A stretch of 31,606 bases of DNA, taken from positions 1-31,606 of the IMG/VR virus record IMGVR_UViG_3300030012_003361; one strand, given 5' to 3'. The position numbers were made by a program, and so were the translations under genes. This document shows, piece after piece, positions 13,498-24,839 of the stretch. The notes beneath the pieces are model-generated. The model saw only the letters and a list, made by a program, of their open reading frames with translations. It had not been told where the DNA came from and did not search any database. The first letter of the stretch is position 1. Every line of letters begins with the position of its first letter. Source of the stretch: a virus.

Positions 13498-13626
13498 ATG
13501 ATTATTTATGAAATAATTGCAAATTTGTTTATACTAGCAATATCAGTTGTGTTGCTAGCTGTAGGCAGTTGCGCGTTTTACATTTTAATTAATGAAATAC
13601 TAAGAGGAATATATGAACGAAAGTAA
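13498..13626 (+). CDS. 42-aa one-pass membrane miniprotein
   Basis: This short frame encodes MIIYEIIANLFILAISVVLL, then AVGSCAFYILINEILRGIYERK. A single hydrophobic segment spans residues ~6-32 and the end is basic, suggesting the C-terminus faces the cytoplasm. It overlaps the RHH gene by 14 bases in another frame. No clear ribosome binding site precedes it and the ATG would be close to the predicted transcript start, which lowers confidence. Function unknown. Confidence 0.45.
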   Translation: MIIYEIIANLFILAISVVLLAVGSCAFYILINEILRGIYERK

Positions 13627-13771
13627 ACCAGTTACAGGTTACAGGATGCAGATTATCGGTCTTGATCCTGATATCAGAGCTAATTTTCTTGCTGCGTGTA
13701 AGAAAAATGGTGTAAGTGGATCAGGATTGTTAAGGCAGTTTATGGCTGATTACGCTAAACAAAATGCTTGA
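13613..13771 (+). CDS. Ribbon-helix-helix (CopG/Arc-like) DNA-binding protein
   Basis: This 52-residue protein has AGAGGAA upstream of the ATG. Its layout is a short beta strand (GYRMQIIGL), helix one (DPDIRANFLAACKKNG) and helix two (GSGLLRQFMADYAKQN), as in ribbon-helix-helix repressors, which bind DNA as dimers through the strand. It is the first likely regulator of the forward early module and lies next to promoter P1. It is the best candidate in the window for a factor acting at the repeated TGTTATA promoters, though that link is only a guess. Its TGA overlaps the next ATG. Confidence 0.6.
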   Translation: MNESKPVTGYRMQIIGLDPDIRANFLAACKKNGVSGSGLLRQFMADYAKQNA

Positions 13772-14120
13772 ACCTGATAAAAAGCGCACAGCAAAAGTAG
13801 ATCAATATCAAGATCGCGTGCTTGGTCTGTTGCAACGAAATTCAAGTTTAAGAATGCCTATTAAATCTTATAGAATACAATATGCTTTTAAAATATCAGA
13901 TATTGTAGTGAGGCAGATTGTAGGTAGGTTAAGAGATCAGGGGCATCCTATTGGAAGCGGAAAAAAGGGATTTTGGTACGCTCAGAATGCTCATGAATTA
14001 CAATCAACAATAGATGAATTAACTGATCGTATGTCAGTAATGAGTAGGCGTAAGCAGATGCTGTTAAATGCACAAAAAAATTTACTTATTGAGGCTGATG
14101 GTCAATTAAGATTATTATAA
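13764..14120 (+). CDS. Winged-helix DNA-binding protein
   Basis: This 118-residue protein starts inside the end of the RHH gene. Residues ~15-72 form a helix-turn-helix/wing pattern: QDRVLGLLQRNSSLRMPIKS, DIVVRQIVGRLRDQGHPIGS and GKKGFWYAQNAHEL, the last being the wing. A C-terminal helix (RMSVMSRRKQMLLNAQKNLL) may dimerise. The pattern is common in phage early genes beside annealing and replication proteins. It could be a transcription factor or replication accessory. Confidence 0.6.
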   Translation: MLEPDKKRTAKVDQYQDRVLGLLQRNSSLRMPIKSYRIQYAFKISDIVVRQIVGRLRDQGHPIGSGKKGFWYAQNAHELQSTIDELTDRMSVMSRRKQMLLNAQKNLLIEADGQLRLL

Positions 14121-14131
14121 AGTGAGGGAAT

Positions 14132-15100
14132 ATGTCAGAAAATCAAAAAATAAAAGAGCTGCTATTAGCTGAAACGCCTAAAGATCGCGTTAAGTTTAGA
14201 ATAGGCAGAAAATATGCTAATAATCAAAGAGCGCACATGCTTGCTTATGTAGATGCAAGATATGTTCAGGATCGCTTAGATGATGTTATGGGAGCAGAGA
14301 ACTGGAGTAATAGCTTTGAAGTAATTGATAATACTTTATTTTGCGCTATTACAGTTGTTTTTCCTGATGGTAAAGTAGTAACTAAAACAGATTGCGGAAC
14401 TGAATCTAATGTAGAAAAAGAAAAAGGTGAAGCATCTGATGCGTTTAAACGCGCTGCTGTTATGTTAGGGATAGGTAGAGACTTGTATGATCTACCAAAT
14501 CATTTTAATATGCATGCGGACTTAAATGAAAAAGGATTTCCGCCAAAAGATTGGACACCGCAAGGCTGGGGCAATCATAACCACAAAGAACAACGTCATG
14601 TTCAAGGCAGTCAAGAGTCTCCTCAAAAGCCCCAGCCGTCTAATGAGAATCCAGCAGAAGAAAAAAGCGATTTACAAGCTTATGCTGATAGTATAGCTGA
14701 AAAGCACATGCCTGATGCTCCTGATGATCCACCTGTTGAAACGAGTTTTGTTAATGAAAAGCCCAAGGCAAAGAAGGAAAGCAATACTGAATATGTTGTT
14801 ATTAATAATTTAAGACTGGATCATGAAACTGATAAATCAAGGTTATTAGTGCCAAGTAATGTTGCAAAAGGATCAGAAGAATCAAAAGGTAATCAATACT
14901 GGCTAACAAAGCAGTTCACAAAAGAATTAATCAGAATGAATAGCGGATTGTATTCAGTAGTAGTACAAAAATGGATTTTAAAAGATAAGCCTTATGATTA
15001 CGAGGATTATGATCAGAAAAAGGTTCATAATATGATTGAGCAGGAAGCTCAGGCAGATCAAAATGAATCGCCATCTGTAGATGATGATTTACCATTTTAG
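14132..15100 (+). CDS. Rad52/Rad22-family single-strand annealing protein with SSB-like C-terminal tip
   Basis: A 322-residue protein with GAGGGA upstream. Residues ~37-127 match the Rad52/Rad22 core: AYVDARYVQDRLDDVMGAEN, WSNSFEVID, then GEASDAFKRAAVMLGIGRDL followed by YDLP. Such phage proteins anneal complementary single strands and work with a resolvase, as the RuvC gene nearby suggests. After a polar linker (residues ~140-210) comes a second small domain, and the chain ends SPSVDDDLPF. That tip is almost the acidic tail of bacterial SSB (DDDIPF), which binds many replication and repair proteins. The fused tip is unusual and could recruit host factors. One GTTTAAAC copy lies at 14443-14450. 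Confidence 0.8.
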   Translation: MSENQKIKELLLAETPKDRVKFRIGRKYANNQRAHMLAYVDARYVQDRLDDVMGAENWSNSFEVIDNTLFCAITVVFPDGKVVTKTDCGTESNVEKEKGEASDAFKRAAVMLGIGRDLYDLPNHFNMHADLNEKGFPPKDWTPQGWGNHNHKEQRHVQGSQESPQKPQPSNENPAEEKSDLQAYADSIAEKHMPDAPDDPPVETSFVNEKPKAKKESNTEYVVINNLRLDHETDKSRLLVPSNVAKGSEESKGNQYWLTKQFTKELIRMNSGLYSVVVQKWILKDKPYDYEDYDQKKVHNMIEQEAQADQNESPSVDDDLPF

Positions 15101-15106
15101 TGATCA

Positions 15107-15376
15107 TTGTCAAAAAAGAGGTATATAATAGTGCCTGCGGAAGTTAGGTACGATAAGCAATTAGCCGCTGGTGCAAAGCTTTTGTTTGGGGATTTAACAG
15201 TTCTTGCAAAAAAGCAAGGTCATGTTTTTGCCACCAACGGCTATATTGCTAAAACTATTGGCTGCACAGAGATCACAATTAGTAATTGGATTAGTCAATT
15301 AAAGAAATCAGGTCATATTTTTATTAAATACAACCCATATAGGCAGATTTATGTCAAAAATTATAGCAAAAATTAG
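15107..15376 (+). CDS. HTH_36-type replication/regulatory protein
   Basis: An 89-residue protein with a TTG start. It reads RYIIVPAEVRYDKQLAAGAK, then LLFGDLTVLAKKQG, followed by a helix-turn-helix (TNGYIAKTIGCTEITISNWI) and KKSGHI. This is the pattern of the N-terminal HTH domain of phage and plasmid replication initiators (HTH_36). Only the DNA-binding domain is present, so it could be a short initiator or loader. It lies ~2 kb from the candidate origin. It overlaps the next small gene by 26 bases. Confidence 0.7.
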   Translation: MSKKRYIIVPAEVRYDKQLAAGAKLLFGDLTVLAKKQGHVFATNGYIAKTIGCTEITISNWISQLKKSGHIFIKYNPYRQIYVKNYSKN

Positions 15377-15512: not shown

Positions 15513-16508
15513 TTGTTTAATAAAATATTATATGGGGATGTTGTTGAACGCCTTAAAGATATAAAAGATAATACAATACAATGCGTTGTAACTTCTCCAC
15601 CTTACTGGGGATTAAGAGATTATGGCACTGCTACTTGGATTGGTGGAGATAAAGATTGTAGTCATAAAAGAGAATCTAAAAAATCGGAAAAAACAATTAC
15701 AGGTCATAAAAATTTTGAAGAAATGAATGGTGTTGGGGATGCGATATATAAAACAGAATGTTATCGTTGTGGAGCTAAAAGAAAAGATGAGCAGCTTGGA
15801 CTTGAAGAAACCCCTGAAGAATACGTTAATAATATGGTAAAGGTATTTCGTGAAGTAAAACGAACTTTAAAAGATGATGGCGTTTTATGGTTAAATCTTG
15901 GAGATACTTATTCAGCGCAGAGGTGGACTAAAAAAGGCATGGATACAACAGAGGCGCAGCCAATGAATAAAATGAAGGATGATTGGAGAGCAATCGCACC
16001 TATTAAAAAATCAGGTATTCCTGATAAAAATTTAGTAGGCATACCGTGGCGAGTAGCATTTGCACTTCAAGCTGATGGTTGGTATTTAAGGCAAGATATT
16101 ATATGGCATAAGCCAAATCCAATGCCTGAATCAACAAAAGATAGATGCACGAAATCTCATGAATATATTTTTTTAATGACTAAAAACGCTAATTATTATT
16201 TTAATAATAAAAATATTGCTGAAGATTCAAAAACAAATTATGGAGAAAAATCAAATAAAAGGTCTGTTTGGAAAATTAATGTTAGTAAATATAAAGATGC
16301 TCATTTTGCTACATTTCCTCAAGAATTACCTGAGTTATGTATAAAAGCAAGCACTAAAAAAGGCGATGTAGTTCTTGATCCTTTTTTTGGAAGTGGTACA
16401 ACAGGATATGTTGCTCAAAGATTATATAGAAAATGGTTAGGAATTGAATTAAATAAAGATTATATAAAAATAGCAGAGAAAAGATTCGTTCAGCAAGAAT
16501 TATTTTAA
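15513..16508 (+). CDS. Orphan DNA methyltransferase (SPPY class, beta-type order)
   Basis: A 331-residue protein started at TTG with GGAGG five bases upstream. Catalytic motif IV is TSPPYWGLRDYG (SPPY at 28-31) and the AdoMet motif DPFFGSGTTG is near the C-terminus (289-298), so the order is IV-TRD-I, the beta class. SPPY is usual for N4-cytosine enzymes but also occurs in N6-adenine ones. An insertion after motif IV carries Cys/His residues (DCSHK, then CYRCGAK), perhaps a zinc knuckle. No restriction enzyme gene is adjacent, so it probably protects phage DNA or alters expression. It is exactly framed by 20-bp direct repeats, suggesting acquisition as a cassette. Confidence 0.85.
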   Translation: MFNKILYGDVVERLKDIKDNTIQCVVTSPPYWGLRDYGTATWIGGDKDCSHKRESKKSEKTITGHKNFEEMNGVGDAIYKTECYRCGAKRKDEQLGLEETPEEYVNNMVKVFREVKRTLKDDGVLWLNLGDTYSAQRWTKKGMDTTEAQPMNKMKDDWRAIAPIKKSGIPDKNLVGIPWRVAFALQADGWYLRQDIIWHKPNPMPESTKDRCTKSHEYIFLMTKNANYYFNNKNIAEDSKTNYGEKSNKRSVWKINVSKYKDAHFATFPQELPELCIKASTKKGDVVLDPFFGSGTTGYVAQRLYRKWLGIELNKDYIKIAEKRFVQQELF

Positions 16509-16530: not shown

Positions 16531-16986
16531 ATGATATCAATAGGAATAGATGTAGGTAAAAGCGGCGGTATAGCCGTTATCGACTCAATAACCACTAAAA
16601 GCACGCCAATTACAACGGCAAAATGCCCTGATACTGTAAAAGATATGTCAAAATTAATTGAATGGGCAAAGTGGGATTGTAGAAAAACACTATGTGTTAT
16701 TGAAAAAGTTCATAGTATGCCAAAGCAGGGAGTAAAGTCTATGTTTACATTTGGTAAGAATTATGGGCAATGGTTAGGTATTTTAACAGCGTTTGAAGTG
16801 CCTTTTATAGAGGTTATGCCTAAAAAATGGATGCAATACTATGGAGCTATGCCTAAAGATAAAAAAGAGCGTAAAACGCATTTAAAACACTTAGCACAAT
16901 CTTTATATCCTACGATTGACGTAACTTTATATACAGCTGATGCTATATTAATGGCTCATTATTGTAGGCATGAGCTTAATATATGA
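16531..16986 (+). CDS. RuvC-like Holliday junction resolvase
   Basis: A 151-residue RNase H-fold protein. The catalytic acidic residues are visible: D7 in ISIGIDVGKSGGIAVI, E58 in CVIEKVHSMPKQGVKSMFTF, and D137 in TADAILMAHY. The KSMFTFGKNYGQWLG segment is typical of phage RuvC. It should cut four-way junctions made during recombination-dependent replication or before packaging, as partner of the Rad52-like protein. Its ribosome binding site lies in the second copy of the 20-bp repeat. A degenerate paralogue is at 1890-2294. Confidence 0.85.
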   Translation: MISIGIDVGKSGGIAVIDSITTKSTPITTAKCPDTVKDMSKLIEWAKWDCRKTLCVIEKVHSMPKQGVKSMFTFGKNYGQWLGILTAFEVPFIEVMPKKWMQYYGAMPKDKKERKTHLKHLAQSLYPTIDVTLYTADAILMAHYCRHELNI

Positions 16987-23801: not shown

Positions 23802-24839
23802 ATGGCTAGGCATGATGCGGATGGGAATGCAATTAGCTGCCCAAAATGCAATAGCAAAAAAATGCGTAAAGATGGTTTTGCGTATTGGAAAACGTTTAAA
23901 CGTCAGCGATGGATGTGTACTGAATGTTTTAAAAAAACAGTAGCACCTACAAAAATAGCTCATAATCCTTTTAACGTTCCTGAAGTACCTGTTGAAGAAA
24001 TGTCTATTGAGGATATAATAGCATTTAGAAATAAAAAATATCAGGTAAAAGTAAAAAACGCCAATTATAAAAAGCTAATTCCTATTCAAGTAAATACAAC
24101 TGGCGTTATTGGAATCGCTCATTTTGGCGATCCACATGTTGATGATGATGGTACAAATCTCGCAGAAATATATAATATTGTTAATACAATAAATAAAACA
24201 GAAGGAATGTTTGCTGGAAATCTTGGTGATGTTCAAAATAATTGGATTGGAAGATTAACAGCATTATATAGTCAGCAATCAACAACAGCCAAAGAGTCTT
24301 GGCTTATTACTGAGCATTTTTTAACCAGCGTGCCTTGGATGTATTTAGTGGCTGGAAATCATGATGTTTGGTCAGGCGATGGCGATCCTATTGAATTTAT
24401 TATGCGAGATCAGCCTGCTTTATATCAAAAGCATGGTGCAAGAATGAATTTAATTTTTCCAAACAGGCGGCAAATTCGAGTTTCAGCAAGACACACCTTT
24501 AAGGGAAATAGTATGTGGAATACTGCCCATGGGATTAGTAAAGCTATTCAGATGGGTTGGCGTGATCATATTTTAACTGCTGGGCATACTCATGTATCAG
24601 GATATCAGGTGTTAAAAGATCCGTCATCAGGATTAATTAGCCACGCGTTGCAAGTTGCATCATTTAAAAACATGGACGAATATGCTGAAAAATTAGGCTT
24701 AGATGATAAAAATATTTTTAATTGTCCTGTAACAATTATTGATCCTAAGTATGCTGATGATGATCGCAGATTGATCACTACTATATTTGATCCGCATGAA
24801 GGTGCAGATTATTTAACATGGAAACGCAAAAAGAAGTAA
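23802..24839 (+). CDS. Zinc-ribbon metallophosphoesterase
   Basis: A 345-residue protein. An N-terminal zinc ribbon (C13, C16, C39, C42; CPKC and CTEC) recalls those of transposases and transcription proteins. It is joined to a calcineurin-like phosphoesterase domain: GDPHVD (D109, H111), GNLGDV (D142), AGNHDVW (184-187), HG at 242-243 and AGHTH (259-263), the full set of metal ligands. The substrate is unknown; relatives act on nucleotides, nucleic acids or proteins. It sits between portal and capsid genes, so it may act during head assembly or be packaged. A GTTTAAAC copy is at 23894-23901. Confidence 0.8.
   Translation: MARHDADGNAISCPKCNSKKMRKDGFAYWKTFKRQRWMCTECFKKTVAPTKIAHNPFNVPEVPVEEMSIEDIIAFRNKKYQVKVKNANYKKLIPIQVNTTGVIGIAHFGDPHVDDDGTNLAEIYNIVNTINKTEGMFAGNLGDVQNNWIGRLTALYSQQSTTAKESWLITEHFLTSVPWMYLVAGNHDVWSGDGDPIEFIMRDQPALYQKHGARMNLIFPNRRQIRVSARHTFKGNSMWNTAHGISKAIQMGWRDHILTAGHTHVSGYQVLKDPSSGLISHALQVASFKNMDEYAEKLGLDDKNIFNCPVTIIDPKYADDDRRLITTIFDPHEGADYLTWKRKKK

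Follow-up and report, generated by a model that had tools for sequence, protein, structure and literature searches.

Does a viral annealing protein that ends like bacterial SSB also use this end as SSB does, to recruit other proteins? The question is raised by a gene in the IMG/VR virus record IMGVR_UViG_3300030012_003361, of which the whole 31,606-nucleotide stretch, a 31.6-kb fragment hereafter called the window, was analysed together with its relatives.

The long Rad52-type protein and its gene cassette

The open reading frame at 14132-15100 starts with ATG, is immediately preceded by a stretch resembling a ribosome-binding site (GTGAGGGA), and encodes a product of 322 amino acids with the C-terminus ...QNESPSVDDDLPF-stop. 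The gene and its parts are as follows:

14132-15100, plus strand: long-form Rad52/Erf-type annealing protein gene, 322 aa (Pfam, PHROG; 12 members of the same build)
14132-14566, plus strand: Rad52 core, residues 1-145 (Pfam at residues 5-131; Foldseek to RAD52/Mgm101)
14567-14776, plus strand: linker, residues 146-215, poorly conserved and predicted to be disordered (conservation; pLDDT about 30)
14786-15007, plus strand: small conserved beta domain, residues 219-292 (alignment; AlphaFold2 of the L198 homologue)
15008-15079, plus strand: spacer, residues 293-316, unconserved (alignment)
15080-15097, plus strand: SSB-Ct-like tip DDDLPF, residues 317-322, with the stop codon directly after it (D-x-P-F in 12/12 long forms)

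The core occupies the N-terminal ~45% of the protein. Residues 5-131 match Pfam Rad52_Rad22 (PF04098; E=2e-11, 44.4 bits against a cut-off of 20.3), and the comparison with PHROGs identified an Erf-like annealing protein (phrog_1097, E=1.4e-34). Furthermore, the top solved structures found by Foldseek with the AlphaFold2 model were human RAD52 and yeast Mgm101 (E about 1e-5, probability 1.00, modest TM-scores). The window protein is thus a Rad52/Erf-type SSAP by profile and core fold, as originally predicted for its N-terminal half, with ring formation and strand annealing as its predicted activities.

Relatives were collected from IMG/VR in scans that used the protein or alignments as query, the final scan bringing no further long forms. 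Twelve long forms share the same build, consisting of the Rad52 core, a loose linker, a small conserved beta domain, a variable spacer and the tip. L001 and L002 are 93% and 73% identical to the window protein, respectively, and L055, L099, L193, L194, L195, L196, L198, L199 and L208 share 36-43% identity with it over aligned columns. The N-terminus is cut by the contig end in rows such as L055, L199 and L208, and L003, which ends before its C-terminus, was excluded from the tip count. Nine of the 12 long-form records are 19-44 kb in length, that of L001 being 37 kb. In a tree of the Rad52 core, which leaves out three partial long forms and several short forms for lack of length, nine long forms constitute one clade (support 100/90) adjoining the short forms L004/L005 (98/82), whose next gene bears a tip. 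Among isolate phages, the window and L194 proteins were not covered to 80% by any record, and searches with the C-terminal half alone yielded nothing convincing. All 66 related loci in bacterial genomes were short-form or more distant.

The gene order of the clade is 52-aa gene, 118-aa gene, Mu Gam-like gene (in some members), long Rad52, HTH_36 gene, methyltransferase (in some members) and RuvC-like resolvase. The window contains:

13613-13771, plus strand: 52-aa gene of the upstream cassette (homologues in the same place in L001, L195, L196, L198, L099 and L193)
13764-14120, plus strand: 118-aa gene, phrog_2113 (unknown), directly upstream of rad52 (PHROG)
15107-15376, plus strand: 89-aa HTH_36 protein, resembling phage replication initiators in their N-terminal part (Pfam, PHROG)
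16531-16986, plus strand: RuvC-like Holliday junction resolvase (phrog_1770, E=1.3e-25; conserved neighbour in most members)

No homologue of the 52-aa gene was matched in L002. The HTH_36 open reading frame is a complete gene despite its truncated look, as it encodes 86-98 aa throughout the clade; it lies directly downstream of the long rad52, where short-form relatives often place an SSB-type gene. A Mu Gam-like end-protection gene is located directly upstream of the long rad52 in L193, L196, L198 and L099 and is missing from this place in the window, L001, L002 and L195. An N6/N4 DNA methyltransferase is encoded between the HTH_36 gene and the resolvase in the window (15513-16508) and also in L099; it is absent there in L001 and L002. 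Far from the rad52 cassette, downstream of the terminase gene at a distance of about 1.8 kb, the window additionally encodes a DNA repair exonuclease (23802-24839; phrog_7339, E=3e-36), possibly a nuclease partner. Since none of the window open reading frames scanned was recognisable as a polymerase, primase or helicase gene, the phage probably depends on the replication proteins of its host; a tip able to recruit them would fit such a dependence.

The C-terminal tip and the region that carries it

The last residues of the window protein are SPSVDDDLPF, and the claim that SVDDDLPF resembles the acidic tip of bacterial SSB (DDDIPF) is upheld by its homologues. All 12 long forms retain a D-x-P-F C-terminus, with none of the random loss that would have spoken against the tip, and position -5 is acidic in 11 of them and Asn in one. 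The tip reads DDDLPF in the window, L001, L099, L194 and L195, EDDLPF in L055, L199 and L208, EDTPF in L193 and L198, GEDVPF in L196 and NDPPF in L002 (C-terminus QNDPPF). The alignment columns just upstream of the tip are unconserved, and the mean majority fraction per column is 0.89 for the tip, 0.75 for the Rad52 core, 0.55 for the C-terminal domain and 0.47 for both spacer and linker. Close pairs differ silently within the tip (TTA vs CTT in window/L001, ACC-CCA vs ACA-CCC in L193/L198). A DNA-level search of 49 related phage records for [DE][DE]-x-PF-stop hit 24 of them, and the reversed version of the pattern, used as control, hit none. Acidic C-termini are generally common, which would favour a chance acidic end, but the tip persists in every long form across 36-39% identity despite the variable spacers. 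This conservation together with the reversed-pattern control excludes a chance origin at the level of sequence, the probability left to it being negligible. With its acidic residues, x-P-F, position at the extreme C-terminus and conservation, the tip has the sequence features of an SSB-Ct motif.

The tail has a net charge of -1 to -5 in ten of the twelve members. In L193 and L198, where just ED stands ahead of x-PF and lysines lie immediately upstream, the last ten residues have a net charge of 0 and D-x-P-F is still present; in L002 the corresponding residues are ND. These three sequences weigh against docking by the tip. The acidic tails of SSB, T4 gp32 and T7 gp2.5 have been described as folding back and being released on DNA binding. 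By analogy, the tail of the long forms could be mainly autoregulatory, folding back within or between subunits on the basic DNA-binding surface of the core or on the beta domain until DNA binding releases it. This is the main rival of docking and would agree with a tail that is acidic in most members and lies behind a long flexible linker, and with such contact between tail and DNA site in E. coli SSB, which is discussed in the HK620 paper (PMC5928155). In known SSAP pairs it is moreover the annealing protein that receives the SSB tail, as the CTD of Red-beta does in binding SSB (PMC8303780), so that a tip on the annealing protein itself could be regulatory. An invariant terminal P-F would be needless for pure electrostatics, however, and D-x-P-F is kept at zero net charge in L193/L198, which leads us to regard autoregulation as unlikely.

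The tip is joined to the core by three segments. In the linker, a single short helix is predicted near residues 179-185. The beta domain follows the pattern NL..[ES].K..L..P...GD...TK.YW[VI]PKQ.I....M.G..N[VL].V.RWIAEQ. Spacer length varies across the clade, from almost none to about 25 residues; the tip comes almost directly after the beta domain in L193, L196, L198, L199 and L208 and follows a flexible stretch in the window, L001, L002, L194, L195, L099 and L055. In the whole-protein AlphaFold2 model, the C-terminus reached a pLDDT of only about 30-48, whereas the beta domain modelled alone from the compact L198 homologue (AlphaFold2, 12 sequences) was mostly beta with a pLDDT of 84. This domain had no Pfam match, and the fold search found no match among solved PDB structures. 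A weak match to phrog_8389 (E=0.0012, from L194) agrees with the Foldseek matches among predicted viral structures (BFVD), which, at a best E of 1e-4, were to one protein of 323 aa and otherwise to short, uncharacterised proteins of phages. The beta domain (14786-15007) and its phrog_8389 relatives resemble short stand-alone proteins predicted in many phages, and the domain may bind DNA or a partner.

Where related phages carry the tip

Short-form relatives end at a point matching about residue 143 of the window protein (..PP.NWKP-stop) and have no tip. Among 180 distinct Rad52-core open reading frames with a stop, 147 were untipped with enough flank, and 46 of these 147 have a separate tip-ending gene within 2 kb downstream of rad52; within 2 kb upstream, such a gene was found for 0 of 125. 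Conversely, a separate downstream tip gene is missing from all 12 tipped Rad52s for which at least 1.5 kb of downstream sequence exists. A tip on Rad52 and a separate nearby tip gene exclude each other. Only one of the about 168 other Rad52-core homologues has a weak, unrelated version of the tip, namely L164 from a prophage of a Phascolarctobacterium bin, which ends in KMNEVPF, has a separate tip gene upstream and falls outside the long-form family. L164 was scored as tipped in the tip-gene count, and its tip is taken as unrelated or due to chance.

The separate tip genes are diverse. In L004, L022/L023 and L112 they encode small proteins of 83-94 aa, two of which match the ssDNA-binding PHROG 18154. 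In L005 (5647-6009) and L106 (10440-10850), SpoVG-family proteins (PF04026) are encoded directly downstream of rad52, ending in TDDDIPF and SEDIPF, respectively, as if SpoVG were a tip-bearing phage ssDNA-binding protein. A family of ~200 aa without Pfam or PHROG match adjoins the short rad52 in L019 (4440-5069), L020, L021, L024 (3319-3912) and L028; its members end in LDEIPF/EDDIPF, making it a candidate new phage SSB type. True PF00436 SSBs are encoded farther from rad52 in L006, L008, L009, L012 and L013. Several larger proteins near rad52 also have SSB-like tips, including a 445-aa frame in L024 (NEDIPF), a 450-aa protein in L020 (TSDIPF) and 340-aa proteins in L051 (ADELPF) and L036 (EDNLPF). 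In isolate phages, the Erf of a Yersinia phage, the Sak of Lactococcus phage Q33 and the Rad52 proteins of Vibrio phage 1.265 and Paenibacillus phage SV21 are untipped, and the neighbouring SSB or small protein, one or two genes away, ends in DDDIPF, DDQLPF, DEEIPF and DDDLPF, respectively. Adjacency of erf/rad52 and ssb genes has been described before (PMC8093625). Together, these comparisons support the view that the long-form tip stands in for the tip on the adjacent SSB-type gene of related phages.

In agreement with the original prediction that the window lacks an SSB gene, neither the PF00436 search of the record nor the PHROG scans of its open reading frames found one, although in a 31.6-kb fragment such an absence counts for little by itself. 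The possibility of an SSB gene elsewhere combined with an unconserved tip did not materialise either: no PF00436 SSB was recognisable in any of the 12 long-form records, window and L001 included. The long-form records likewise contain no SpoVG or phrog_18154 proteins and no second tip gene near rad52; they are possibly fragments and might use a type of SSB other than those searched. A search for DUF669 gave no match anywhere, controls included, and thus had no positive control.

In the simplest history, Rad52 gained a tipped C-terminal region, probably once, and the separate tip gene was lost; the tag seemingly moved from a neighbouring SSB-type gene to the annealing protein. A homologous fusion with a downstream SSB-type gene is unsupported, as hhalign of the C-terminal half against two neighbouring tip-gene families gave a match confined to the tip; the C-terminal region would consequently be a functional replacement, unproven as a fusion. 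A more far-reaching alternative is that a single chain unites annealing protein and SSB, with the beta domain binding ssDNA as a second module. Such a full SSB replacement would account for an extra domain and tip beyond the stop of the short forms, for the loss of the separate tip gene and for the mostly beta fold. We nevertheless consider it quite improbable given the tip-only profile match and predicted-structure relatives that are short uncharacterised viral proteins. The window protein has no PF00436 OB-fold domain of the bacterial SSB type, and an OB-fold/SSB identity of its C-terminal domain finds no support in the Pfam, PHROG (weak match only) and PDB fold searches.

A putative docking tip and its relation to known systems

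From the evolutionary pattern and from published precedent in the HK620 SSB and a PriB graft, we consider it somewhat probable that the long form is a Rad52/Erf-type annealing protein with a built-in SSB-Ct docking tip that recruits host or phage tip readers; we infer docking, the identity of the partners and the need for host replication proteins. The Rad52 core would pair complementary single strands, and linker, beta domain and spacer would present the last residues (D-x-P-F and further acidic residues) outward, where the tip could dock, SSB-like, onto SSB-tip readers of the host or the phage. In E. coli, candidate readers are RecO, PriA, RecQ, ExoI, DnaG and the chi subunit of the polymerase. 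In related phages, this job would fall to a tip-bearing ssDNA-binding protein with its own gene downstream of rad52. The precedents are the SSB of phage HK620, whose last six residues (NDYPPF) are needed for it to stimulate Sak4 recombineering 10-fold (PMC5928155), and the SSB tail grafted onto PriB, which stimulates PriA (PMC8509808).

A ring or filament of the annealing protein would display many tips. Whether such a Rad52-type ring might anneal, replace the missing phage SSB and capture all host tip readers as a one-protein hub is more doubtful, and we put this forward only tentatively. The tip could also be a decoy, competing with host SSB for its partners and thereby blocking repair nucleases or helicases harmful to phage DNA. 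The docking surfaces would be identical to those of recruitment, and the Mu Gam-like gene upstream of rad52 in several members testifies to the importance of protection from host enzymes in this module. Soluble competition would not need placement on an annealing protein, though, and the tips of relatives, carried by ssDNA-bound SSB-type proteins, fit recruitment better; we therefore judge a decoy very unlikely.

Annealing proteins work mainly when they contact host SSB and the replication fork, which is thought to limit their use for genome editing across species. Red-beta, for example, requires SSB contact (PMC8303780). If docking is true, an annealing protein with an SSB tip of its own would solve this differently, by addressing the tip readers directly. 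It would also make it testable with very few residues whether a phage SSB tip loads the annealing protein or recruits other proteins: in this clade, loading cannot need a separate tip-bearing partner near rad52, so that deletion of the tail would separate the two purposes.

We found no annealing protein with its own SSB tip in the open-access literature searched. The window protein resembles Rad52/Erf/Sak phage SSAPs (PF04098, phrog_1097) in core sequence and fold and in the surrounding recombination genes, which include one for a Holliday junction resolvase and, in part of the clade, one for a Mu Gam-like protein. It is about 170 residues longer than the nearest short-form Rad52s, and its beta domain and SSB tip are lacking both in the short forms and in the nine isolate-phage Rad52/Erf/Sak proteins compared. 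Like the C-terminal region of lambda Red-beta, that of the long forms may be the link of an annealing protein to the host; the CTD of Red-beta is a three-helix bundle that binds SSB and lambda exonuclease, whereas the long-form C-terminus bears the tip itself on a domain predicted to be mostly beta. HK620 likewise joins an annealing protein with an SSB-type tip, its NDYPPF being close to the QNDPPF of L002, but does so with two proteins and a RecA-type annealing protein, in contrast to one protein with a Rad52-type core. As in the SSB-Ct (DDDIPF) of bacteria and phages, acidic-x-P-F stands at the extreme C-terminus, in the window protein and some other long forms after a flexible stretch; its carrier is a Rad52-type annealing protein, whereas an OB-fold SSB bears the SSB-Ct. 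Judged by its sequence, the tip is a real and conserved case of a known motif in an unusual place, on members of a protein family that is itself known.
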